Shown here piece after piece: positions 20,271 through 48,859 of a stretch of 52,446 nucleotides of DNA (the stretch's first letter is position 1; every line of letters begins with the position of its first letter). The notes beneath the pieces were generated by a model. It was not told the DNA's origin. It did no database searches and saw only the letters and a program-made list of their open reading frames with translations. The position numbers and the translations under genes are program-made. This DNA is from Acidobacteriaceae bacterium (lineage in GTDB: Bacteria > Acidobacteriota > Terriglobia > Terriglobales > Acidobacteriaceae), in assembly GCA_003134435.1 (NCBI GenBank), contig PLBE01000196.1, positions 57,698 through 110,143 of the forward strand, written 5' to 3'.

Positions 20271-21326
20271 ATGCCCACGGACGATTACGATTTTCAACTC
20301 GGCCTGCTACCTGAAAAGAAGTGGAATTGGCGTACCTTCGTAGCAAGCTACGGGATCGTCACATGCTTCGTTCTCTTTCTGCTCTTATTCGGGATCATCA
20401 TGCCCGACACGCTCCTCATCACAGCCAATTATCACGTTACGGAATTAGTGCCGCGGCCATCGTTGCGGCCGGAGCCCCCGCCTCCGCCAAAACCGCTTCC
20501 GGTGCATGCCAAGTTGCTGCCGCCAGCGCCCGTGTTCGAAACACCGAAGTTAGTCGTGCCCCACGAAGTCCGCGCTCCCAAGCTCCAACCGCAGGAAATC
20601 GAGCCCCCGAAAGTGGCGATCAATGTTGCTGCGCCGGCGGTCTTGAAGCCGACCAGCGGAGCACGGCCGGTCCTGATTCATACCGGGGAATTCCAGGGAA
20701 GTTCCGTGGCTCCAACCGTGAATGCTCCAATTTCGAAGGTCCAGACCGGCGGCTTCGGGGATCCGAATGGGCTGAAGCCGAGCGAGAACAGCAAGCCTAA
20801 CGGCAAGTTGATCGCTTCCGCTGCCGGTTCGTTTGATATGCCGGTGGGGCCGGGACAGGGCAACGGGTCGGGCGGAGCCAAAGGAATCAAGGGAACCGTC
20901 GCCAGTGCCGATTTTGGCAGTGGGGTGGCAACTGGCGGGCAGGGCGACGGTCGGCGCAGCGGACGCGGCAGCCCGGGAGTGCAGAGTTCCGGGTTTGGCG
21001 CGCAGGAGATCGCGCAGAACACGGCCCACCTGCAGCGCGTGGACAGCGGTCCTCCGACGACCCAGGTGGAGATCACCTACAAGCCGAATCCGGCGTATAC
21101 GGACGAGGCCAGGAATCTAAAACTGGAAGGCGAAGTGCTGCTGGAAGTGGAGTTCGCGGCGAACGGGCAACTGCACGTGAATCGCGTAGTCCGGGGTCTG
21201 GGCCATGGACTCGATGAGACTGCTGTGGCGGCCGCAAACAAGATGCGGTTTAAACCCGCTCTTCGAAACGGCCAGGCAATCGATTCGACAGCAATTGTGC
21301 ACGTGGTATTTCAACTGGCGTATTGA
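20271..21326 (+). CDS. TonB-family energy transducer
   Basis: A 351-residue protein with TonB layout. A cytoplasmic N-terminus of about 27 residues is followed by one membrane helix (about 28-50), then a proline-rich stretch (PRPSLRPEPPPPPKPLP at about 61-77), a long Gly/Ser/Asn-rich spacer, and a TonB C-terminal domain (about 265-351) with YTDEARNLKLEGEVLLEVEF and the closing FKPALRNGQAIDSTAIVHVV. TonB passes energy from the inner-membrane ExbB/ExbD motor to outer-membrane receptors; no exbBD or receptor is in this window. The next gene, a secreted M48 peptidase, begins 19 bases downstream, so the two are probably one operon. The family is clear; the partner receptor is unknown. Confidence 0.92.
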   Translation: MPTDDYDFQLGLLPEKKWNWRTFVASYGIVTCFVLFLLLFGIIMPDTLLITANYHVTELVPRPSLRPEPPPPPKPLPVHAKLLPPAPVFETPKLVVPHEVRAPKLQPQEIEPPKVAINVAAPAVLKPTSGARPVLIHTGEFQGSSVAPTVNAPISKVQTGGFGDPNGLKPSENSKPNGKLIASAAGSFDMPVGPGQGNGSGGAKGIKGTVASADFGSGVATGGQGDGRRSGRGSPGVQSSGFGAQEIAQNTAHLQRVDSGPPTTQVEITYKPNPAYTDEARNLKLEGEVLLEVEFAANGQLHVNRVVRGLGHGLDETAVAAANKMRFKPALRNGQAIDSTAIVHVVFQLAY

Positions 21327-21345
21327 AACTTTGGAGATAAGTGTT

Positions 21346-23109
21346 ATGCGGATGGTTACAGGCAGCATGAAGGGTATGATTTTGGCTCTGCTGGCGGTAT
21401 CAGCGACAGCAATAGCTCAGCAGTCCGCGGCCACGCCGCAGAACCCACAGCCGGTCGCGGCAGCGCAGTCGAATCTGGCTCCGCCCGCCACCATGGATCA
21501 GGTGGTGGACCGCGTGATCTTGCGCGAGAAAGACATGGTTAAGTTCCTGTCGCCGCGCACCCCGATTGTGGAGACGTATCTGCAGGACCTGACGCAGGAT
21601 CCGCAACTGGGACCGATTCCGCAGGACGATCATTATTTTCTGGGACGCATGGATTTCAGCGATTCCATCGACCGGACCGAATACCTGCAGGGCAAAGACA
21701 AAGGCTCAGACAAAGACGAGAGCATGGAGAAACGTCTGCTGGGCGGATTCGCGAAAAAATTCAAGTTCCAGTACCAACCGCTGGGTTTTTCCTGGATGAT
21801 CTTCGCCGACCGCAGCGATTTTGACCGCCAGCACTACGATTTCCGCTATGCGCGACGCGAGTTCCTGGGCGACGTCCGCTGCCTCGTGTTTGACGTGACG
21901 CCCAAGAAAAACGCCGGTCGCGGCCGCTTTCTCGGACGCATCTGGGTTGAAGATCAGGACTTCAGCATTGTTCGTCTGAACGGGACCTATTCGCATCCTT
22001 CGCGGAATACCTACTATTTCCACATGGACAGCTGGCGGCTGAATCTGGTTCCGGGTTACTGGGTGCCGTCGTATATCTACAGCGAAGAGGGCGACTTCTC
22101 GGCGGGAGCCAAGAACAAAATCGCATTCAAAGCGCAGACTCGCATGTGGGGTTACAACCTGAAAATGGGAACCGCGAGCGACGAGCTCACGAACATCCGC
22201 GTCGACAGCGTCAAAGATGACACGCCGACCGCCCAGGATGCTACTCCGCTGGCCGCCGAGCGCGAATGGCAACAGCAGGCGGAAGACAATGTGGTTGATC
22301 GTCTGGAGCGCGCGGGCCTGCTTGCCCCCGCTGGCGACGTGGACAAGATCCTGCAAACCGTGGTGGATAACCTATTGATCACCAATAACATCGAACTGCC
22401 ACGGCCGGTCCGGACGCGGGTTCTGACCACTTCCCCGCTGGAGACTTTCAGCGTTGGGAACACCATCGTGGTGAGCCGCGGACTGATCGACGTGCTTCCC
22501 GATGAGGGTAGCCTGGCCATGGTGCTTTCGCACGAACTGGCGCACATCGTGCTGGGACACAATCTTGGAGGCGAATACGCCTTTAATGACCGCATGCTGT
22601 TTTCCGACGAAGGAACCTATCAGAACCTCGGCTTCAAACATATTCCCGAAGAGGAAGCGGCCGCCGACAAGAAAGCAATCGAGATGTTGAAGGCTTCACC
22701 CTACGCGCAGAAGCTGGATTCAGCCGGACTCTTTATCAAAGCGCTACAGATACGCGCTCCACAATTGAGCGCTCTGCTGCAAGCGCATCTCGGGAACAAC
22801 ATCTCGGAAAACGGCGTCGTGCGCATGGCGCAACTCGCCACATCGGCTCCAGCCCTCGATTGGAACAAGCTCGACCAGATTGCCGCCTTGCCTCTCGGTG
22901 GACGAGTCAAACTGAATCCTTGGGACGACAAAGTAGAGATCGTAAAAGCGCAGCCAGTCGCGATCACTTCGGCGCGTGACAAGATGCCCTTCGAAGTGAC
23001 GCCGTTCTTCCCCCGGCTCTCGCGCTACAACTCCGCGCCTGCGCCGGTAAATGCGCCTGCGCCCACCACGGCGGCCACCGCCACCAACAACCCTACGCCG
23101 AGCAACTGA
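21346..23109 (+). CDS. Secreted M48-type metalloprotease with unusual N-terminal domain
   Basis: A 587-residue protein. The start at 21346 has GGAG nine bases upstream and gives a signal peptide (hydrophobic core LALLAVSATAIA, cleavage near AQQ at about 24). Residues about 60-290 form an N-terminal beta-rich domain with FLGDVRCLVFDV and GRIWVEDQDFSIVRLNGTY, which looks like a lipoprotein-sorting/LolA-like half barrel; this is my reading from pattern only. The peptidase domain (about 330-520) has HELAH (396-400) in LSHELAHIVLGH and a downstream EEAAADKKA at about 436-444, which supplies the third zinc ligand as in M48. A Pro/Ala/Thr-rich tail ends the protein. It should act in the periplasm or at the outer membrane. 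It follows a TonB gene by 19 bases. Confidence 0.9.
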   Translation: MRMVTGSMKGMILALLAVSATAIAQQSAATPQNPQPVAAAQSNLAPPATMDQVVDRVILREKDMVKFLSPRTPIVETYLQDLTQDPQLGPIPQDDHYFLGRMDFSDSIDRTEYLQGKDKGSDKDESMEKRLLGGFAKKFKFQYQPLGFSWMIFADRSDFDRQHYDFRYARREFLGDVRCLVFDVTPKKNAGRGRFLGRIWVEDQDFSIVRLNGTYSHPSRNTYYFHMDSWRLNLVPGYWVPSYIYSEEGDFSAGAKNKIAFKAQTRMWGYNLKMGTASDELTNIRVDSVKDDTPTAQDATPLAAEREWQQQAEDNVVDRLERAGLLAPAGDVDKILQTVVDNLLITNNIELPRPVRTRVLTTSPLETFSVGNTIVVSRGLIDVLPDEGSLAMVLSHELAHIVLGHNLGGEYAFNDRMLFSDEGTYQNLGFKHIPEEEAAADKKAIEMLKASPYAQKLDSAGLFIKALQIRAPQLSALLQAHLGNNISENGVVRMAQLATSAPALDWNKLDQIAALPLGGRVKLNPWDDKVEIVKAQPVAITSARDKMPFEVTPFFPRLSRYNSAPAPVNAPAPTTAATATNNPTPSN

Positions 23110-38788: not shown

Positions 38789-38881
38789 GGTGACGCCTCA
38801 ATGGGCTGGGCCAGATCAGTTACAATACCCTTGTATACGCAGCCGCTGTCAGGCGTTTCGCTTGCTGGCCCTGTTGATTTC

Positions 38882-40522
38882 ATGGATGTGACGCTTACTT
38901 CTTCCCCGATGTCCTCGCTGGCGCTGTTCGCAAGTCTTGCTCCCAAGGGCTTTGGAGCCTATCTCCGCCACCATTTTCTGGACAAGACTTTCGTGGGCCT
39001 CTACCAGGTCAACGCCTTTGACTTGGCGTTGCTGATTCCTTATTTCATCGTCTTGATCATCCTCGCTGCCTATGGCGCCCACCGCTACTGGCTCGTCTAT
39101 CTTTATTACAAGCACAAAGAGAAGAAGACCTCCGAACCCGCCGCTCATTTCGACGAACTGCCGCGGGTCACGGTGCAATTGCCCATCTATAACGAGCAAT
39201 ACGTTGTGGACCGTCTGCTCGACGCGGTGTGCCGCCTGGAGTATCCCAAAGACAAACTCGACATTCAACTGCTCGACGACTCCACCGACGAAACCGTCGA
39301 GGTCGCACGCCTTCTGGTCGAACGCTATGCCGCGCTGGGCAATCCCGTCGTCTACCTCCACCGCCTCAATCGTGAAGGCTTCAAAGCAGGCGCTTTGGAA
39401 GCCGGATTAAAAACCGCGAAGGGCGAATTCGTCGCTATCTTCGACGCCGATTTCGTGCCGCCGTCTGACTTTCTGTTGAAGTGCATCCATCACTTCACCG
39501 ATCCCCGGGTCGGCATGGTGCAAACGCGCTGGACCCACATCAATCGCAACTATTCTCTCCTGACCCAGGTTGAAGCCATTCTGCTCGACGGCCATTTCGT
39601 GCTCGAACACTCGGGACGGGCGCGCAGCGGCGTCTTTTTTAATTTCAACGGCACCGCCGGAATGTGGCGACGCCGCGCCATCGACGAAGCCGGCGGCTGG
39701 GAGCACGACACGCTCACCGAAGACACCGATCTCTCCTATCGCGCACAACTCAAGGGCTGGAAGTTCCTTTATCTGCAGGACGTCGAATGTCCAGCCGAGT
39801 TGCCGGTGGAAATGACGGCCTTCAAGACGCAGCAGGCGCGCTGGGCCAAGGGATTGATCCAGGTCTCGAAGAAAATCCTACCCAGGGTCTTTGCCAGCGA
39901 CGCCTCGCGGCACCAGAAGATCGAAGCCGTCTACCACCTCACCGCGAACCTCAGCTATCCGTTGATGATCGTGCTTTCCGTTTTGCTGATGCCGGCGATG
40001 ATTATTCGCTTTTATCAGGGATGGTTTCAGATGCTTTATATCGACCTGCCCCTGTTCATGGCGTCAACGTTCTCCATTTCCAGCTTCTATCTGGTTTCGC
40101 AGAAGGAACTATTCCCGAAGCGCTGGTTCCGAGCGTTGCTCTACCTGCCACTGTTGATGTCTTTGGGAATTGGTCTGACGATCACCAATACCATCGCCGT
40201 GCTCGAGGCGTTGGTAGGCAAACAGACAGCCTTCGCCCGCACTCCCAAGTACCGCGTTGAATCGAAGAAAGACCGCGTCGGGGCCAACAAGTACCGCAAG
40301 CGCCTGGGCTGGGTTCCGTGGATTGAGCTTCTGATTGGAACGTATTTCGCGCTGGCCGTCTTTTACGCGATCGACAATGAAAATTACTTTACCGTTCCGT
40401 TTCTGCTGTTGTTCGTCGTCGGCTACTGGGTCACGGGCCTGATGTCGCTGCTCCAGGGCCGCTTCACCGGACTGTCGGTAGGTTCGGAAGCCCACACCAA
40501 GCCTTTCCCGGTAGGCGTTTAG
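38882..40522 (+). CDS. Membrane glycosyltransferase family 2, cellulose-synthase-like
   Basis: A processive-type beta-glycosyltransferase of about 546 residues. After an N-terminal membrane helix (LALLIPYFIVLIILAAYG) comes the GT-A catalytic core with VTVQLPIYNEQYVVDRLLD, the D-D pair in LLDDSTDET, DADFVPP (metal-binding DxD-type), EDTDLSYRAQLKGW with the base ED, and QQARWAKG, which is the Q-x-x-R-W motif of processive synthases. At least four C-terminal membrane helices follow. It should transfer sugars from a nucleotide donor to a growing polysaccharide across the inner membrane, in the manner of cellulose or glucomannan synthases; the product is unknown. The ATG at 38882 is a guess; an ATG at 38801 would add a 27-residue tail. 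It converges with the GAF-TonB gene. Confidence 0.9.
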   Translation: MDVTLTSSPMSSLALFASLAPKGFGAYLRHHFLDKTFVGLYQVNAFDLALLIPYFIVLIILAAYGAHRYWLVYLYYKHKEKKTSEPAAHFDELPRVTVQLPIYNEQYVVDRLLDAVCRLEYPKDKLDIQLLDDSTDETVEVARLLVERYAALGNPVVYLHRLNREGFKAGALEAGLKTAKGEFVAIFDADFVPPSDFLLKCIHHFTDPRVGMVQTRWTHINRNYSLLTQVEAILLDGHFVLEHSGRARSGVFFNFNGTAGMWRRRAIDEAGGWEHDTLTEDTDLSYRAQLKGWKFLYLQDVECPAELPVEMTAFKTQQARWAKGLIQVSKKILPRVFASDASRHQKIEAVYHLTANLSYPLMIVLSVLLMPAMIIRFYQGWFQMLYIDLPLFMASTFSISSFYLVSQKELFPKRWFRALLYLPLLMSLGIGLTITNTIAVLEALVGKQTAFARTPKYRVESKKDRVGANKYRKRLGWVPWIELLIGTYFALAVFYAIDNENYFTVPFLLLFVVGYWVTGLMSLLQGRFTGLSVGSEAHTKPFPVGV

Positions 40523-40548: not shown

Positions 40549-42147
40549 TCATCGGCCCGGCAGCTTGAATTCGACCACAATTCTGGTCTCGTTCTTTACT
40601 GGTTTGCCATCCAGTTCGAAAGGCTTGTAGCGCCAGTTCTGTACGGCGCTGACGGCGGCTTCGGCAAGAATGGGCGGACCCTTGACGATCTTGACATTCC
40701 GCACCGTGCCATCCTCCATGATGGTTGCAGCCAGGACCACGGAGCCCTCCAGTCGTCGCTCGCGGGCTTGGGCAGGATAGACGGGCTCCACGCGCCGCGC
40801 CAGTTGGCCGCCCGAAACTCCCTGTGACCGCGGCGCGGAAAGTCCGGGCATTGAGGCTTTTGCAGAGAGAACTCCGCTCAGCGCGGACTGATTCATGGAA
40901 CCGGCGGGAATTGGCGGCGGCTGGGCCGCAGTTTCATCGGAACGCGAATCTGTGGAGCGCGCTTCAGTCTGTGCGGAGGCAGCCTCCCGGGGCAGGGCAA
41001 TATTCGCAGCGACGTCCGCCAGCAAGCTTCCTCGATCTCTTTCCGGTCGATCATTCTGACCTCGAGCTGCCGCCGCGTTTTTACCTGCGATCACATCCAC
41101 CTTGGCGGCGAACTTCAGTGGATTTCCCGCCGCAATCTGCTCCCGGGATGGACTCAGCGATTCGCCTGCTGAGTTCGACTTCCAAACCGGGTCATGGCCA
41201 GGCGGGCGCGAGAGTTCGTCATTGCGGCTGGCGGCATTCAAGGACGATGGTCTCGCGTCGACGGCTTTGCGGCCGGCAGCATCCTGTCCCCGCCACCCGA
41301 GCCAAATCACCAGTGCCAGCAGCGCGATCGCCAGGCAGCCAATCGCTCCCAAAACGAGCGGACGCCTCCGTCGATCGACGAACGCCAGAGCGACGTCCCC
41401 AACGGGATCGGATGCCGGCAAGAGGCCGCGCTGCCGCCTCTGCAGTTCGCCCGCCGGTCTAGGCGCGGCCGTCGACGCGCCGTGCGGTTGCGATGCGCGT
41501 GCCCGTTCCGCGAGTGACGCCAGTTGCTGAAGCTGAACAATATGTTGTTCGGTGAAGGCTGCCGGTCGGGTTGAAAAAACCTCAAGAATTCCGTTGATCC
41601 CGCGCCAACCCTGGATCGGCAAGACCGCAATGGAACGCAAACCCAGGCTGCGGCAGACCTCAACATCGACCAGCGGATCATTCTCCGTATCCAGGCAATG
41701 CTGTAGCTTTCCGGTACGCAGACATTCCCCCGAGATTCCAGTCTCCGCACTCAATCGCGCGCCGAGAGCGGGAGCCGTCTCACCACTGCGCGCGCGGCAC
41801 ACCATCGCACCGTCCTTCCACATGGCCAGCGCGGCTCCGGAGGCGCCCGTCAATTGCCGGGCGGCGTCAGTGATGGTCCCGAGGATCGTGTCCAGGCGGT
41901 GGTCGCCGGTGGCGATAAGGTTCCTCAAGGACGACAGGGCTGTGCCCTCATCCAGTTTTCCAGAGCGGACGCCCGGCGGACTGGAGTGGGTTTGCGGCGC
42001 AGCATCACGATCAAAAGCAGGGGATATCTTCCCGGGGCCTAACGGCTTGGACTGAGGCACAACCACACGCTCTCTCGAATGGCAAGTGGCCGAATAAAAT
42101 CCGGCAAAACGCAAGCTGTGCTGGCAATTTGCCCGAGTATGAGGCAT
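40549..42147 (-). CDS. GAF-domain/TonB fusion protein
   Basis: About 532 residues with an unusual order. A GAF domain occupies about 80-215 (DAARQLTGASGAALAMWKD, ETGISGECLRTGK, LPIQGWRGINGILEVF), followed by a linker, one membrane helix (about 262-284, LVLGAIGCLAIALLALVIWL), a long Pro/Ala/Ser-rich spacer and a TonB C-terminal domain (about 440-532) with AQARERRLEGSVVLAATIMEDG and NWRYKPFELDGKPVKNETRI. With the GAF domain cytoplasmic and TonB_C periplasmic, the protein could let a cytoplasmic ligand or redox signal adjust energy transfer to an outer-membrane receptor. Start choice is uncertain; a GTG about 27 codons later is possible. It converges with the glycosyltransferase and is divergent from a GAF-HD-GYP gene. 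No exbBD is near. Confidence 0.88.
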   Translation of the reverse strand: MPHTRANCQHSLRFAGFYSATCHSRERVVVPQSKPLGPGKISPAFDRDAAPQTHSSPPGVRSGKLDEGTALSSLRNLIATGDHRLDTILGTITDAARQLTGASGAALAMWKDGAMVCRARSGETAPALGARLSAETGISGECLRTGKLQHCLDTENDPLVDVEVCRSLGLRSIAVLPIQGWRGINGILEVFSTRPAAFTEQHIVQLQQLASLAERARASQPHGASTAAPRPAGELQRRQRGLLPASDPVGDVALAFVDRRRRPLVLGAIGCLAIALLALVIWLGWRGQDAAGRKAVDARPSSLNAASRNDELSRPPGHDPVWKSNSAGESLSPSREQIAAGNPLKFAAKVDVIAGKNAAAARGQNDRPERDRGSLLADVAANIALPREAASAQTEARSTDSRSDETAAQPPPIPAGSMNQSALSGVLSAKASMPGLSAPRSQGVSGGQLARRVEPVYPAQARERRLEGSVVLAATIMEDGTVRNVKIVKGPPILAEAAVSAVQNWRYKPFELDGKPVKNETRIVVEFKLPGR

Positions 42148-42334
42148 CGAAACCGCGCTGTCAATAATAGATCGGGCGCTCTGGGCTCGCCCTTCGAATG
42201 ATCGGAAGGGCGTGCGTTGCGAATCCCACAATCCGCAGATTTTCCTCGCACCAAACTAACCAACAAACGACGCGCCGACAGAATGCTAACCTGAATGTGC
42301 TCTGGGTTTCTGGCAAGCACCTCCGCAACAGGCA

Positions 42335-43579
42335 TTGCAGGGAACCAACCTCAAAAAGCTCTTACGAACCGTCGAAGCGCTGGCGGAGCTGGGTCCCGAA
42401 CTTACGGCGGACCGCGACTTCCACCAAACCGCTCGCGCCATGCTGAACGCGGTCATGGAAGCAGCCGGTGCCCGCGAAGCGGCTCTATTCTCATTCGGCG
42501 AACGGCCGTCAGTGCTTACTTCGGTCGATGCCGAGGGATTCGCGCTCCTCCCGGATCCGTCGATCATCCCCCTGCTTCCCCGTCACGTGCATGCTCTGAC
42601 TGCAGCCACGGGCCCAGTGCTGCTCAACACTTCCACCTACGATATTTTCCTCAGTTCAAACGGCAATGTCGCGCCCGAACTATTCAAGTGTGTTTGCCCC
42701 CTGAAAGTACGCGGAAAGCTCGCCGGAGTGATTGCCCTGGGACGCCGGCTCGGCGATGCCCGCTACGAAGAAGACGCTCTCGATGCGTTTGAAATGTTGA
42801 GCCACTACGTGGCGCTGGCCATTCAAAATCACACGCTCGGCCAGACCCTGGCACAGCGCGTTTCGGAAAACCTGCGGCTCCTGGCTTCGCTGCACGGGTT
42901 CTACGACAATGCGCTGGAGGCCTTCGCGACCGCCATCGACGTCAAACACGTCAACATTCATGGCCACTCGCTGCGCGTCGGACGCTACGCCCAAGCCATC
43001 GGCGAAGCCATGGGGATGGATCCGACTGCGGTCGCATCGTTGCGCTCGGCGGGCTACCTGCACGACATTGGGAAGGTTGCCGTCGATAAACGGCTGTTCG
43101 AAAAACCCTCGCAACTCGATGCAGAAGAATCCCGGGCCATGCGCGACCACACCGTGGTTGGACACCAGATCGTCAGCCAGGTGCAGTTCCCCTGGCCGCA
43201 GATTCCGGAAATCGTGCGCTGGCATCATGAGCGGGGAGATGGTTCCGGCTACCCGGACGGCTTGCATGGCGACGAAATGCCGCAAGCCGTGCGCATTATT
43301 GCTCTGGCTGATAGCTTCGATGCCATGACCAGCGAGCGTCCCTACCGCGAACGCCTCTCCGTCGGCACCGCGCTTCAGGAGTTGATCCGCATGTCTCCCC
43401 AAAAATATGATCCCCATGCCCTGCAGGCTTTGCTCATCCAGGTGCGGAGGGACGCCATTGGAACCAACCGCATCCCGATTTTTGAACCTGGCGGGATGAA
43501 CCTTTCCGCCGGCGATGTGGATCAACTGGCCTCGACTCTGCAACACCGCCTCACCCAGGACAAGGTCTTTGTCACCTGA
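42335..43579 (+). CDS. GAF-HD-GYP protein, probable c-di-GMP phosphodiesterase
   Basis: A 414-residue soluble protein. The N-terminal part (about 10-170) is GAF-like (REAALFSFGERPSVLTSVDA, CPLKVRGKLAGVIALGR). The C-terminal part is an HD-GYP domain with GYLHDIGKVAVDKRLF (HD at 243-244), DHTVVGHQIV (271-280), and RWHHERGDGSGYPDGL, in which HHERGDGSGYPDG (297-309) contains the GYP triad, then ALADSFDAMTSERPYR. All metal-binding positions appear intact, so c-di-GMP hydrolysis is likely. The TTG start at 42335 is tentative. It is divergent from the GAF-TonB gene across about 190 bases, so the two may share a regulatory region. What the GAF domain binds is unknown. Confidence 0.9.
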   Translation: MQGTNLKKLLRTVEALAELGPELTADRDFHQTARAMLNAVMEAAGAREAALFSFGERPSVLTSVDAEGFALLPDPSIIPLLPRHVHALTAATGPVLLNTSTYDIFLSSNGNVAPELFKCVCPLKVRGKLAGVIALGRRLGDARYEEDALDAFEMLSHYVALAIQNHTLGQTLAQRVSENLRLLASLHGFYDNALEAFATAIDVKHVNIHGHSLRVGRYAQAIGEAMGMDPTAVASLRSAGYLHDIGKVAVDKRLFEKPSQLDAEESRAMRDHTVVGHQIVSQVQFPWPQIPEIVRWHHERGDGSGYPDGLHGDEMPQAVRIIALADSFDAMTSERPYRERLSVGTALQELIRMSPQKYDPHALQALLIQVRRDAIGTNRIPIFEPGGMNLSAGDVDQLASTLQHRLTQDKVFVT

Positions 43580-45970: not shown

Positions 45971-48859
45971 ATGAATCCAGTGGGCACGCTCGAAACCGCA
46001 AAAGCCGCGAACCCTCTCACCCAGCTGCAGACGTTCGGCCAATCCATCTGGCTGGACTACATTCGCCGCGACCTGCTGAAGGGTGGCGAACTGCAGCGCC
46101 TGATCAGTCAGGATGGTTTGCGCGGGATGACGTCCAACCCCGCGATTTTCGAGAAGGCCATTGCCGGTTCGACGCAGTACCAGGATTTCCTGGACTCTCT
46201 CGCCGGGCGCGCCGACCTCGACGCCAAGGGCCGCTACGAATTGCTCGCCATCCGCGACATTCAGGACGCAGCCGACCTGCTAGCGCCCGTCTACAAGAGC
46301 ACGAAGAAGCGCGACGGTTATGTCAGCCTCGAAGTCTCCCCTTACCTCGCCCACGACACGAATGGCACTCTGGAAGAGGCGCGGCGGCTGTGGAAGGCCG
46401 TAGCGCGTGAGAACTTGATGATCAAAGTGCCGGGCACTCCCGAGGGTATTCCGGCATTTCGCCAACTCATCAGCGAAGGTATCAACGTCAACGTGACTCT
46501 CCTGTTTGCACAGGGAGTTTATGAAGAAGTTGCCGCGGCATACATCGATGGCGTAGAAAAGTTCGCCGCCGGAGGCGGAGACGTGAACAAGATTGCCAGC
46601 GTTGCGAGTTTCTTCATCAGCCGCATCGATTCACTGGTTGACTCCATGGCAGGCGACCAACTCAAGAAGGAAACGGATGCGGCGCGCAAGGCCAAACTGC
46701 AAGGCATCCTCGGCAAAGTCGCCATCGCCAATGGCAAATTGACTTACGAAGCCTACCAGCGCATCTTCGCGTCGCCGCGCTGGCAGGCGCTGTCCGCCAA
46801 GGGCGCGCAAACTCAGCGCGTGCTGTGGGCGAGCACGGGCACCAAGAACCCGAATTACAGCGACGTCCTCTATATCGAGGAATTGATCGGACCGGACACC
46901 GTCAACACCGTTCCTCCGGCCACCCTTGACGCCTTCCGCGATCACGGCAAGCCCCGCCAAAGCCTGACCGAGGGCTTGGATGGCGCACGAAAAACCATGG
47001 CCGATCTGGCCGGGGTTGGCATCGTCATGAAAGATGTGACTGACAAGCTGACCGCCGACGGTGTAAAGCTGTTTGCCGACGCCTTCGATACTTTGCTGGC
47101 CGCAGTCGAGAAGAACACCAAGCGGCTGAACACGCCTCCGGTGAACTCGCAGGGCGCCTCCCTTCCCGCCGATCTTGACACTGCGGTAAAAAAAAACCTT
47201 AACGACTGGCGAGCTTCCGGAAAAGTAAGACGCCTCTGGCATAACGACGCTTCGTTGTGGACCAACGATGACGAAGCCAAGTGGCTGGGATGGCTCGGCA
47301 TCACCGACGAGCAGCTCGCCAACGCGGACAAACTCAAGACGCTGGCCGCCGAGGTCAAGAGCGGCGGATTCTCCGACATTCTGCTGCTCGGCATGGGCGG
47401 ATCCAGTCTTTGCCCCGAAGTACTCGCGCTCACTTATCCACAAGCGCCCGGCTTCCCCCGGCTGCACATTCTCGACTCCACCGACCCGGCGCAAATTCTT
47501 ACCGTCGAAAAGAAAGTCGACCTCGCGAAAACCCTCTTCATTGTTTCCAGCAAGTCCGGCAGCACCCTCGAACCCAATATTTACAAACAGTATTTCTTCG
47601 AGCGCGTGCGGCAGACCATCGGCGGCGACAAGGCGGGCAGCCGCTTTATTGCCATCACCGACCCCGGCTCCAAGATGCAGCAAGTGGCCGAACGCGACAA
47701 GTTCCGTCACATTTTTTACGGACTGCCATCGATCGGCGGCCGTTACTCCGCCCTCTCCAACTTCGGCATGATTCCCGCGGCTGCCATGGGTCTTGATACC
47801 GGCAAATTTCTCCAGCGCACAAAAGACATGGTCGATTCCTGCAAGGCGTCAGTTCCCGTAGAGCAGAATCCGGGAGTGATGCTCGGCTTGGTCATCGGAA
47901 CAGCCGCCAAGCTTGGCCGCGACAAGATCACACTCGTCACCTCGCCCGGCATTGCCGACCTCGGCGCGTGGCTCGAGCAGTTGATTGCGGAATCTACCGG
48001 CAAGCTCGGCAAGGGCATTATCCCGGTCGATCGCGAAGCCCTCGGTGCGCCGGAAGTGTATGGCAACGATCGCATCTTTGCCTGCATCCGGCTGGAAGGC
48101 GAACCTGACGCCGCGCAGAATGCTCAGATCTCCGCGCTCGAAAAGGCCGGCCATCCCGTCGTGCGGATCGCCGTCGCCGACGTCTACAACCTGGGACAGG
48201 AATTCTTCCGCTGGGAAATTGCCACCGCCGTCGCGGGCTCGATTCTCGGCATCAACGCCTTTAATCAGCCCGATGTCGAAGCCAGCAAAATTGTGACCAA
48301 GCAGCTTACCTCGGCCTACGAAAGCAGCGGCGCGCTTCCGCCCGAAAAACCCATCGCCGAAGAAGCGGGCTTCAAACTTTTCACCGACAACGCCAACGCC
48401 GCCGCTCTCGCCAAGGCGGCCGGTTCCGATCATTCCGTAAAAGGCTATCTGCGCGCCCATCTGGCGCGTTTAGGCGCGGGCGATTATTTTGCCCTGCTCG
48501 GATATGTCGAGATGAATGCCGAGCACGAAGCGCTGCTCCAAACCCTGCGCATGAATGTCCGCGATCGCAAGCATGTAGCCACGGTCCTCGGCTTCGGACC
48601 ACGCTTCCTGCACTCCACTGGACAAGCCTACAAAGGAGGCCCCAACAGCGGCGTATTCCTCCAGATCACCTGTGATGACGGGAAGGATTTGCAGGTTCCC
48701 GATCAGAAATACACTTTCGGAATTGTGAAAGCAGCGCAAGCCCGCGGCGATTTCCAGGTTTTAGCCGACCGCAAGCGCCGCGCCCTGCGGGTTCACCTCG
48801 GCAGCGACGTGAAGGCAGGACTCACCAAACTGGCCGAGTTAGTCAAACAGATTTTGTAA
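45971..48859 (+). CDS. Bifunctional transaldolase / glucose-6-phosphate isomerase
   Basis: A 962-residue fusion. The N-terminal half (about 1-385) is transaldolase of the TalA/B-like class: GMTSNPAIFE (52-61), SLEVSPYLAHDTNGTLEEA (119-137) and the Schiff-base lysine K152 in NLMIKVPGTPEGIPA. The C-terminal half (about 400-962) is glucose-6-phosphate isomerase: LLGMGGSSLCPEVLAL (about 471-486), SKSGSTLEPN (about 526-535), GRYSALSNFGMIPAAAMG (about 589-606) and the later glutamate and lysine segments. Both activities seem intact. The fusion couples sedoheptulose-7-phosphate chemistry to fructose-6-phosphate/glucose-6-phosphate interconversion in one polypeptide. GGAG is seven bases before the ATG. 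It is the second gene of the operon and precedes gnd by 63 bases. The type is known in several bacterial groups. Confidence 0.96.
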   Translation: MNPVGTLETAKAANPLTQLQTFGQSIWLDYIRRDLLKGGELQRLISQDGLRGMTSNPAIFEKAIAGSTQYQDFLDSLAGRADLDAKGRYELLAIRDIQDAADLLAPVYKSTKKRDGYVSLEVSPYLAHDTNGTLEEARRLWKAVARENLMIKVPGTPEGIPAFRQLISEGINVNVTLLFAQGVYEEVAAAYIDGVEKFAAGGGDVNKIASVASFFISRIDSLVDSMAGDQLKKETDAARKAKLQGILGKVAIANGKLTYEAYQRIFASPRWQALSAKGAQTQRVLWASTGTKNPNYSDVLYIEELIGPDTVNTVPPATLDAFRDHGKPRQSLTEGLDGARKTMADLAGVGIVMKDVTDKLTADGVKLFADAFDTLLAAVEKNTKRLNTPPVNSQGASLPADLDTAVKKNLNDWRASGKVRRLWHNDASLWTNDDEAKWLGWLGITDEQLANADKLKTLAAEVKSGGFSDILLLGMGGSSLCPEVLALTYPQAPGFPRLHILDSTDPAQILTVEKKVDLAKTLFIVSSKSGSTLEPNIYKQYFFERVRQTIGGDKAGSRFIAITDPGSKMQQVAERDKFRHIFYGLPSIGGRYSALSNFGMIPAAAMGLDTGKFLQRTKDMVDSCKASVPVEQNPGVMLGLVIGTAAKLGRDKITLVTSPGIADLGAWLEQLIAESTGKLGKGIIPVDREALGAPEVYGNDRIFACIRLEGEPDAAQNAQISALEKAGHPVVRIAVADVYNLGQEFFRWEIATAVAGSILGINAFNQPDVEASKIVTKQLTSAYESSGALPPEKPIAEEAGFKLFTDNANAAALAKAAGSDHSVKGYLRAHLARLGAGDYFALLGYVEMNAEHEALLQTLRMNVRDRKHVATVLGFGPRFLHSTGQAYKGGPNSGVFLQITCDDGKDLQVPDQKYTFGIVKAAQARGDFQVLADRKRRALRVHLGSDVKAGLTKLAELVKQIL

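Follow-up and report, generated by a model that had tools for sequence, protein, structure and literature searches.

Can a cytoplasmic signal reach the outer membrane through the TonB fold itself? TonB-dependent transport is usually viewed as being controlled by gene expression and the proton gradient. In the window, a 52,446-nucleotide stretch from an Acidobacteriaceae bacterium, a gene that joins a GAF domain to a TonB C-terminal (TonB_C) domain faces a divergent GAF-HD-GYP gene, and a sequence-only reading of this locus proposed that cyclic-di-GMP turnover and TonB-dependent uptake answer one common cytoplasmic signal.

The fusion itself, a protein of soil and peat Acidobacteriota, is as that reading described it. 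The minus-strand ORF, listed with a TTG start at 42,231 and 560 residues, matches GAF_2 (residues 111–244, E = 9.3e-16) and TonB_C (PF03544; residues 482–557, E = 1.3e-20, 74 bits against a cut-off of 24.6) in Pfam, with one helix between them at about residues 293–311. The Pfam matches, the helix and the blocks of the AlphaFold2 model agree in placing a cytoplasmic GAF domain, one membrane helix and a periplasmic TonB_C domain in a single protein. The listed ORF is likely too long, the likely start being a GTG at 42,066 that is found in nine of the ten relatives matched by the start motif; in the tenth (L048), a TTG stands two codons ahead of that position. Counted from this GTG, the gene (40,549–42,066, minus strand) encodes 505 residues, comprising the GAF domain (41,500–41,901), the membrane helix preceded by an Arg-rich stretch (41,269–41,364; residues 235–266 in the model), a periplasmic linker of about 160 residues that is predicted to be disordered (40,789–41,268) and the TonB_C domain, which retains the P-x-Y-P-x2-A motif (40,561–40,788). 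The pLDDT values reach 91–98 in the GAF blocks and 93–98 in the TonB_C blocks, and are mostly low in the remainder outside the helix. The juxtamembrane segment GLLPASDRVGDVALAF is well conserved across close orthologs.

The GAF domain contains four cysteines (C145, C170, C179 and C193 in ORF numbering; C90, C115, C124 and C138 from the GTG) with a spacing of C-x24-C-x8-C-x13-C. These positions are occupied by Cys in 34, 33, 33 and 29 of 36 GAF domains collected by BLAST. Within the GAF_2 set of the source genome, three of 30 domains have all four and two have three (32 places, two of them without a locus, with the window's own GAF represented by the query). Because the second GAF-TonB protein of this genome (L192) has only one of the four, the layout does not require the cysteines. 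We set aside the invariance of C115 in an alignment of 29 of 32 loci (L147 and L164, with a broken frame, and the fragment L168 were left out), since GISGECLRT had been the search pattern by which those loci were collected.

The GAF model superimposes on 3mmh_A with a Z of 19.0 and an rmsd of 3.0 over 157 aligned residues, and other GAF domains reach the same Z. Among the 50 PDB matches listed, GAF domains, free methionine-R-sulfoxide reductases (fRMsr), phytochromes and 4mcw all lie within Z 17.2–19.2, and no ligand class is favored because they share this narrow range. The overall GAF fold of fRMsr is present in the fusion, and the sequence match to 1vhm_A, taken for the fRMsr comparison, reaches only E = 0.55. 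Foldseek matches the fusion model best to the GAF part of PmGH (4mcw), a Persephonella protein that combines GAF and HD-GYP in one chain, as does the neighboring gene, and has no TonB_C. In AirS of Staphylococcus aureus, the N-terminal sensor region is likewise a GAF domain. A Cys cluster in this region is reported to hold a [2Fe-2S] center, which offers a parallel to the fusion, but AirS is a histidine kinase and its cysteines are spaced C-x7-C-x-C-x17-C (PMC4601167).

We then considered the contact with the Ton motor, for which the test was built on knowledge of E. coli. Ser16 and His20 of TonB are described as touching ExbB, the His as indispensable to Ton and Tol activity (PMC12215075), and a D-box strand directly after the TonB helix as binding ExbD (PMC10907165). 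A strict S-x3-H pattern was rejected as too narrow, since the TonB of the clade's own Ton operon has Gln in place of the E. coli His and the motif thus tolerates change; we repeated the search with S-x3-[HQ]. This motif is found in all six TonBs linked to ExbB-ExbD-ExbD in relatives and in seven of the nine TonB_C proteins of the source genome with an N-terminal helix; one of the two that lack it lies in the window, at 20,271–21,326. It is found in none of the eight source-genome TonB_C proteins with a cytoplasmic region ahead of the helix, a group that includes the fusion as well as L073, which bears no Pfam label in its N-terminal region. These counts derive from 26 TonB_C proteins behind 27 places; nine of these proteins were excluded by eye (L059, with its N terminus cut by a contig end, and L061, L062, L078 and L200–L204, with a secreted-like, short or TonB_C-first layout). 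Across 30 GAF-TonB rows, the window's included, the single match (L165) falls in the cytoplasmic flank.

The ExbD and ExbB places of the genome are on contigs other than that of the fusion, and the Ton operon on contig C166 has a TonB of its own; not all bacteria require a TonB to be linked to exbB and exbD. Matches to the plug domain of TonB-dependent transporters (E ≤ 0.001) number none on the contig of the fusion and 31 elsewhere in the genome. Since the TonBs linked to ExbB and ExbD keep the S-x3-H/Q motif and the fusion does not have it, the fusion is unlikely to be a normal TonB performing signal-gated uptake, and the proposed coupling to TonB-dependent uptake found no support.

With a confidence just short of even, we favor the view that the fusion is a non-energized inside-out envelope protein or tether. 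Its cysteine-rich GAF domain would read a redox, metal or small-molecule state in the cytoplasm, the change of state would pass into the single membrane helix, and the flexible periplasmic arm would bring TonB_C to a partner in the outer membrane or the periplasm. Such a protein would act as do the TonB_C proteins with a cytoplasmic domain in the gliding machine of Myxococcus, exemplified by GltG, and unlike TonB. We consider it GltG-like rather than TonB-like because its helix lacks the ExbB-contact motif, an absence read from sequence whose functional consequence we infer.

GltG (PglI) of Myxococcus xanthus resembles the fusion in having a cytoplasmic signaling domain (FHA), a membrane helix and a C-terminal periplasmic TonB_C; it is placed in a motor complex, with two-hybrid binding to the ExbB-like protein AglR (PMC3169522). 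A TonB_C protein with a cytoplasmic domain can thus be linked to a motor, which counts against the non-energized reading. GltG differs in that its FHA domain occupies the place of the GAF, no FHA domain being found by Pfam in the fusion, and in that it belongs to a gliding machine that includes AglRQS. A second Myxococcus xanthus protein, GltJ (AgmX), differs from the fusion by its cytoplasmic zinc-ribbon and GYF domains and, to our knowledge, has no GAF domain. Like the fusion, GltJ is a membrane protein with a TonB-like C terminus (PMC8262864), and the cytoplasmic GTPase MglA is described as using it as an effector (PMC12288465). TonB and TolA have in common with the fusion a single helix, a long periplasmic linker and, for TonB, the TonB_C fold, but their helix is N-terminal and carries the S-x3-H that touches ExbB or TolQ (PMC12215075), and they have no cytoplasmic sensor.

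The signal could also run in the opposite direction, with TonB_C feeling an outer-membrane receptor or the state of the cell wall and relaying it to the GAF domain, which would contact a cytoplasmic effector. GAF domains frequently act as regulatory modules in dimeric form, and the conservation of the juxtamembrane segment would agree with such a relay. We nevertheless regard this outside-in route as unlikely, with no enzymatic output domain found by Pfam in the fusion and no partner gene common to both syntenic groups that were read. More doubtful is a purely structural role, in which TonB_C would attach to peptidoglycan or to a protein of the envelope, with the GAF domain serving as a ligand-free dimerization module. 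The disordered linker would suit this role, but the conserved cysteine set exceeds the needs of dimerization. SjdR of Anabaena, once annotated as TonB, has a structural envelope role and is a weak precedent because, according to the published report, it is without a TonB-like periplasmic domain (PMC8262864).

The plus-strand neighbor (42,335–43,579; 414 residues from a TTG start retained in 12 of 12 orthologs) is predicted to belong to the HD-GYP c-di-GMP phosphodiesterases, with the HD residues present and, as the sequence-only reading had stated, the HHERGDGSGYPDG motif intact. Its HD_5 match (42,926–43,417; residues 198–361, E = 1e-36) is strong, and H243, D244, H297, H298 and all positions of 297–309 except G301 are invariant in 13 sequences. 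The GAF_2 match is borderline (residues 27–164, 28.7 bits against a cut-off of 28.6; PF01590, 25.4 against 22.4), the structural model is poor (pLDDT 43.7) and no viral relatives were confirmed. The GAF domains of the two proteins give no BLASTP alignment (E = 3.3) and an hhalign probability of 0.1 with a shallow HD-GYP profile, and the cysteine tetrad of the fusion is absent from the GAF of the HD-GYP protein; with neither similarity nor tetrad in common, a single signal for both genes is unsupported.

Between the two start codons lie 268 bp (42,067–42,334), which contain a conserved element, GCACCAAACTAACC, at 42,248–42,261 on the plus strand, 87 nt ahead of the start codon of HD-GYP. Because the element is retained in genomes without the fusion, it goes with the HD-GYP gene, and we rejected a shared divergent promoter as a sign of the pair. 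A conserved family 2 glycosyltransferase gene that converges on the fusion (38,801–40,522, plus strand) marks the slot in synteny. Among 21 same-genus genomes in which the slot is visible, 14 have the fusion gene beside HD-GYP (in one copy, G022, TonB_C is lost altogether), and the pairing is thus no chance event of one genome; with a GAF domain in the fusion and the pairing kept in most of the genus, the sequence-only reading survives the refutation that it had set for itself. The pairing is not obligate either: the other seven slots keep HD-GYP, the flanking genes and the upstream element without the fusion, and HD-GYP also occurs in eight of 13 genomes that represent further genera of the family. 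No close relative of HD-GYP turned up next to the distant GAF-TonB genes that were read from other genera. The HD-GYP gene is a separate unit with its own upstream element and looks like an optional genomic companion, not a fixed partner, and the two genes together make up an arrangement inherited within the genus and not a proven pathway, although its presence in two-thirds of the slots could reflect function.

A true regulatory pair, in which the HD-GYP protein would turn over c-di-GMP locally in connection with the fusion, seems improbable to us. It would be in keeping with the 14 divergent pairs and with a genome of another genus (L206) that shows, in order, a PilZ-GAF-TM-TonB fusion, one gene and a receiver-HD-GYP gene, but Pfam finds no PilZ or other c-di-GMP-binding domain in the fusion, and both the HD-GYP gene and its upstream element persist where the fusion is missing. 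The original proposal, a GAF-gated TonB energy transducer and an HD-GYP protein that shares its signal, is very unlikely: the intact, confidently modeled TonB_C, the genome's plug matches and ExbB/ExbD genes and the 14 pairs fit it, but the missing motor motif, the Ton operon's own TonB, the unrelated GAF sequences and the retention of HD-GYP without the fusion argue against it.

Other proteins of the genome also join TonB_C to a cytoplasmic region: there is another GAF-TonB, along with several further fusions. Kinase, PilZ and the second GAF layouts score above the Pfam cut-off, and two receiver-like ones are suggested by matches below it. It is conceivable, if rather speculative, that Terriglobales have a lineage-specific class of non-energized sensor-TM-TonB_C proteins (GAF, PilZ, receiver-like, kinase and PilZ-GAF) that would connect the redox and c-di-GMP states of the cytoplasm to transporters of the outer membrane or to partners in the envelope, giving the cell inside-out control of its outer membrane through TonB_C without a Ton motor. 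If this motor-less set is real, the usual control of TonB-dependent transport would be joined by whole-envelope signaling through the TonB fold alone. For annotators it would be a warning that an acidobacterial protein labeled ‘TonB family protein’ may fail to energize transport. The PilZ version, which carries a c-di-GMP-type motif, is a better candidate for a c-di-GMP link than the GAF fusion; 23 of 24 same-genus genomes contain a match to it, and in 21 the match spans TonB_C.

Within the minus-strand ORF at 40549–42231, a Pfam profile search placed a GAF_2 domain at ORF residues 111–244 (E = 9.3e-16), bearing out the GAF domain that the sequence-only reading had assigned to this TonB protein, and a TonB_C domain at residues 482–557 (E = 1.3e-20), with one hydrophobic helix (residues 293–311) between them. 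The listed TTG is probably not the true start; the GTG at 42066, which opens a conserved N terminus (V-x-x-P-Q-S-K), would instead give a protein of 505 amino acids. Among the 10 relatives that match this start motif (six other rows have no match), nine begin with GTG and one, L048, with a TTG two codons upstream. An AlphaFold2 model of the fusion (30 sequences) has a mean pLDDT of 70.1, with the GAF and TonB_C blocks at 91–98, a helix at residues 235–266, and a low-confidence N terminus and linker. All 32 loci from named genomes gathered with the fusion alignment lie in MAGs titled Acidobacteria or groups thereof (Terriglobia, Terriglobales, Acidobacteriaceae, Acidobacteriales and Candidatus Sulfotelmatobacter). 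A scan of 297 genomes from the phylum, scoring five candidates in each, gave matches covering both domains at E ≤ 1e-40 in at least four, all in one family. We regard the fusion as a real, conserved and lineage-restricted protein with a plausible cytoplasmic sensor.

The fusion lies divergent beside the HD-GYP gene (42335–43579, plus strand), with the same family 2 glycosyltransferase (38801–40522, plus strand, in the window) on its other side, in 14 same-genus genomes, the window's own included; among these, the G005 fusion is divided over two contigs and the G007 frame holds ambiguous bases. The copy in G022 (L051:6260–7582) retains the GAF domain and the helix without a TonB_C match, and its ORF ends ~30 bp from the glycosyltransferase match. 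Start-to-start gaps between fusion and HD-GYP, measured in eight relatives, are 277–413 bp in most, with 1,323 bp in G001 and 2,400 bp in G006. Seven same-genus genomes have the slot between glycosyltransferase and HD-GYP without the fusion: in G004, G010, G014 and G017 the two flanking genes directly adjoin, with gaps of 117–223 bp by match ends, and in G013, G015 and G019 other ORFs occupy it. The slot in G016 runs off its contig, and G009 and G023 have no HD-GYP match at E ≤ 1e-90, the threshold at which the gene is found in 22 of 24 same-genus genomes (the window's counted) and in 8 of 13 genomes from other genera of the family. In G004 a close fusion does occur away from this slot: it sits on a different contig, of 4 kb, adjoining a transposase-like ORF (IS30-type by eye). 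On the HD-GYP tree, presence of the fusion takes 2 changes (2–3 in bootstraps) versus 6.0 in shuffles, and so follows descent. Because presence follows descent while seven slots lack the fusion, the pair is not due to chance, yet it is optional; the pairing first read from the window thus recurs across the 14 genomes but is not fixed.

The association was not seen beyond the genus. Near 17 GAF-TonB loci (L150–L161 and L163–L167), several of which end at contig ends, there was no HD-GYP match at E ≤ 1e-5, and among three further genomes of other genera the only match, in L206, is a receiver-HD-GYP gene with 35% identity over the HD region. At L206:3373–8406, a PilZ-GAF-TM-TonB_C gene, an S9 peptidase gene and this receiver-HD-GYP gene follow one another on one strand. 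GAF-TonB genes have a second syntenic setting in seven loci, flanked, as judged from ORF starts, by both a GHMP-kinase gene and nuoB (L150, L151 and L163, the last with nuoB two genes further), by the kinase gene alone (L153, L165) or by nuoB alone (L155, L158); flank families were checked in L151, and in L158 for nuoB, and assigned by eye in the remaining loci.

The neighbour is a GAF-HD-GYP protein, as first read: Pfam gives HD_5 at E = 1e-36 and GAF_2 barely over its cut-off (28.7 versus 28.6 bits). Its TTG start is kept in 12 of 12 orthologs, and H243-D244 and H297-H298 are invariant across 13 sequences. The 14-base element GCACCAAACTAAC (42248–42261) lies 87 nt upstream of this start and occurs once in the window's genome. 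With the first base not required, the core GCACCAAACTAACC stands 77–92 nt upstream of HD-GYP in 13 of the 14 regions examined, the exact form being absent from G002. The element is kept in all seven regions without an adjacent fusion, and in three from other genera. It belongs to HD-GYP and gives no evidence for a switch shared with the fusion. The proposed c-di-GMP link through the two genes is not supported.

Nor does a single cytoplasmic signal common to both GAF domains, as earlier proposed, find support. The two domains give no BLASTP alignment (E = 3.3), and a profile comparison, with a shallow HD-GYP profile, returned a probability of 0.1. Cysteines at ORF positions 145, 170, 179 and 193 of the fusion GAF recur in 34, 33, 33 and 29 of 36 related GAFs, a BLAST-gathered set with many near orthologs. 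Among the 30 GAF_2 domains of the window's genome (5.75 Mb, 261 contigs), three have all four cysteines and two have three; the other 25, to which both the GAF of the HD-GYP protein and that of the second GAF-TonB belong, have at most one, the alignment being uncertain in divergent rows. The four-cysteine domains form a GAF subfamily that may hold a redox or metal site. An excerpt of PMC4601167 describes a [2Fe-2S] held by a cysteine cluster in AirS and a GAF domain with non-haem iron in NorR. A PilZ-GAF-TM-Sel1 protein of the same genome (L075:1870–3840, contig C240) also carries the four-cysteine GAF.

In E. coli TonB, helix residues Ser16 and His20 contact ExbB, according to a passage of PMC12215075, and the title of a paper cited in PMC10907165 calls them essential. 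The corresponding motif, S-x3-[HQ], is present in 6/6 TonBs adjoining ExbB-ExbD-ExbD in relatives (L208–L213), each with S-x3-Q instead of S-x3-H. Within the window's genome, where scoring left out nine further TonB_C proteins, it is present in 7 of 9 with an N-terminal helix and in none of the eight with a cytoplasmic region ahead of the helix, the fusion among them. The one letter match among 30 GAF-TonB rows, in L165, is sited in the cytoplasmic flank. The genome encodes a separate Ton operon, in which the contig end truncates TonB, and has 31 matches to the plug domain of TonB-dependent transporters, 0 of them on the window's contig. Because the fusion lacks the motif, a Ton operon exists elsewhere and all plug matches lie off this contig, we disfavour a TonB-like working of the fusion; the proposed motor link to energised uptake is unsupported, the motif being absent here but present in all six ExbBD-linked TonBs of relatives. 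The window also encodes a TonB_C protein (20271–21326) whose N-terminal helix has SYGIV and no S-x3-H/Q, followed by an ORF (21205–23109) with a metalloprotease-like HELAH motif.

A more direct candidate for a link between c-di-GMP and TonB_C than the fusion/HD-GYP pair is a PilZ-TM-TonB_C protein of the same genome (L067:3180–4082, contig C82). It carries R-x3-R and D-x-S-x2-G, which we take to be the c-di-GMP motif of PilZ; 4/4 copies read have both. At E ≤ 1e-40 the protein is matched in 23 of 24 same-genus genomes; the match extends into TonB_C in 21 and ends ahead of it in G009 and G014. The genome further encodes a second GAF-TM-TonB_C protein (L066), a protein-kinase-like domain-TM-TonB_C protein (L071:4271–5698, contig C4), two proteins with a receiver-like N terminus, one TM and TonB_C (L065:2201–3868 and L065:4043–5716; Response_reg at E about 0.004, below the Pfam cut-off), another noted as receiver-like with one TM and TonB_C (L070:3105–4469), whose only N-terminal match is a sub-cut-off PDE8A_N, and a TonB_C protein whose N terminus has no Pfam label (L073). 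L071 adjoins ORFs resembling, by eye, formate dehydrogenase subunits. The nearest published layout known to us is Myxococcus GltG, which, in a passage of PMC3169522, joins FHA, a transmembrane helix and TonB_C, with FHA where the fusion has GAF. Among the papers listed in searches of the open-licence PMC literature, whose hits included work on an ECF sigma factor and on YfiBNR, none describes such sensor-TonB_C fusions in its title or abstract start. This sensor-TM-TonB_C set is the part of the finding that deserves a bench test. Elsewhere in the window, a 962-aa ORF (45971–48859) resembles, by eye, a transaldolase/glucose-6-phosphate isomerase fusion.
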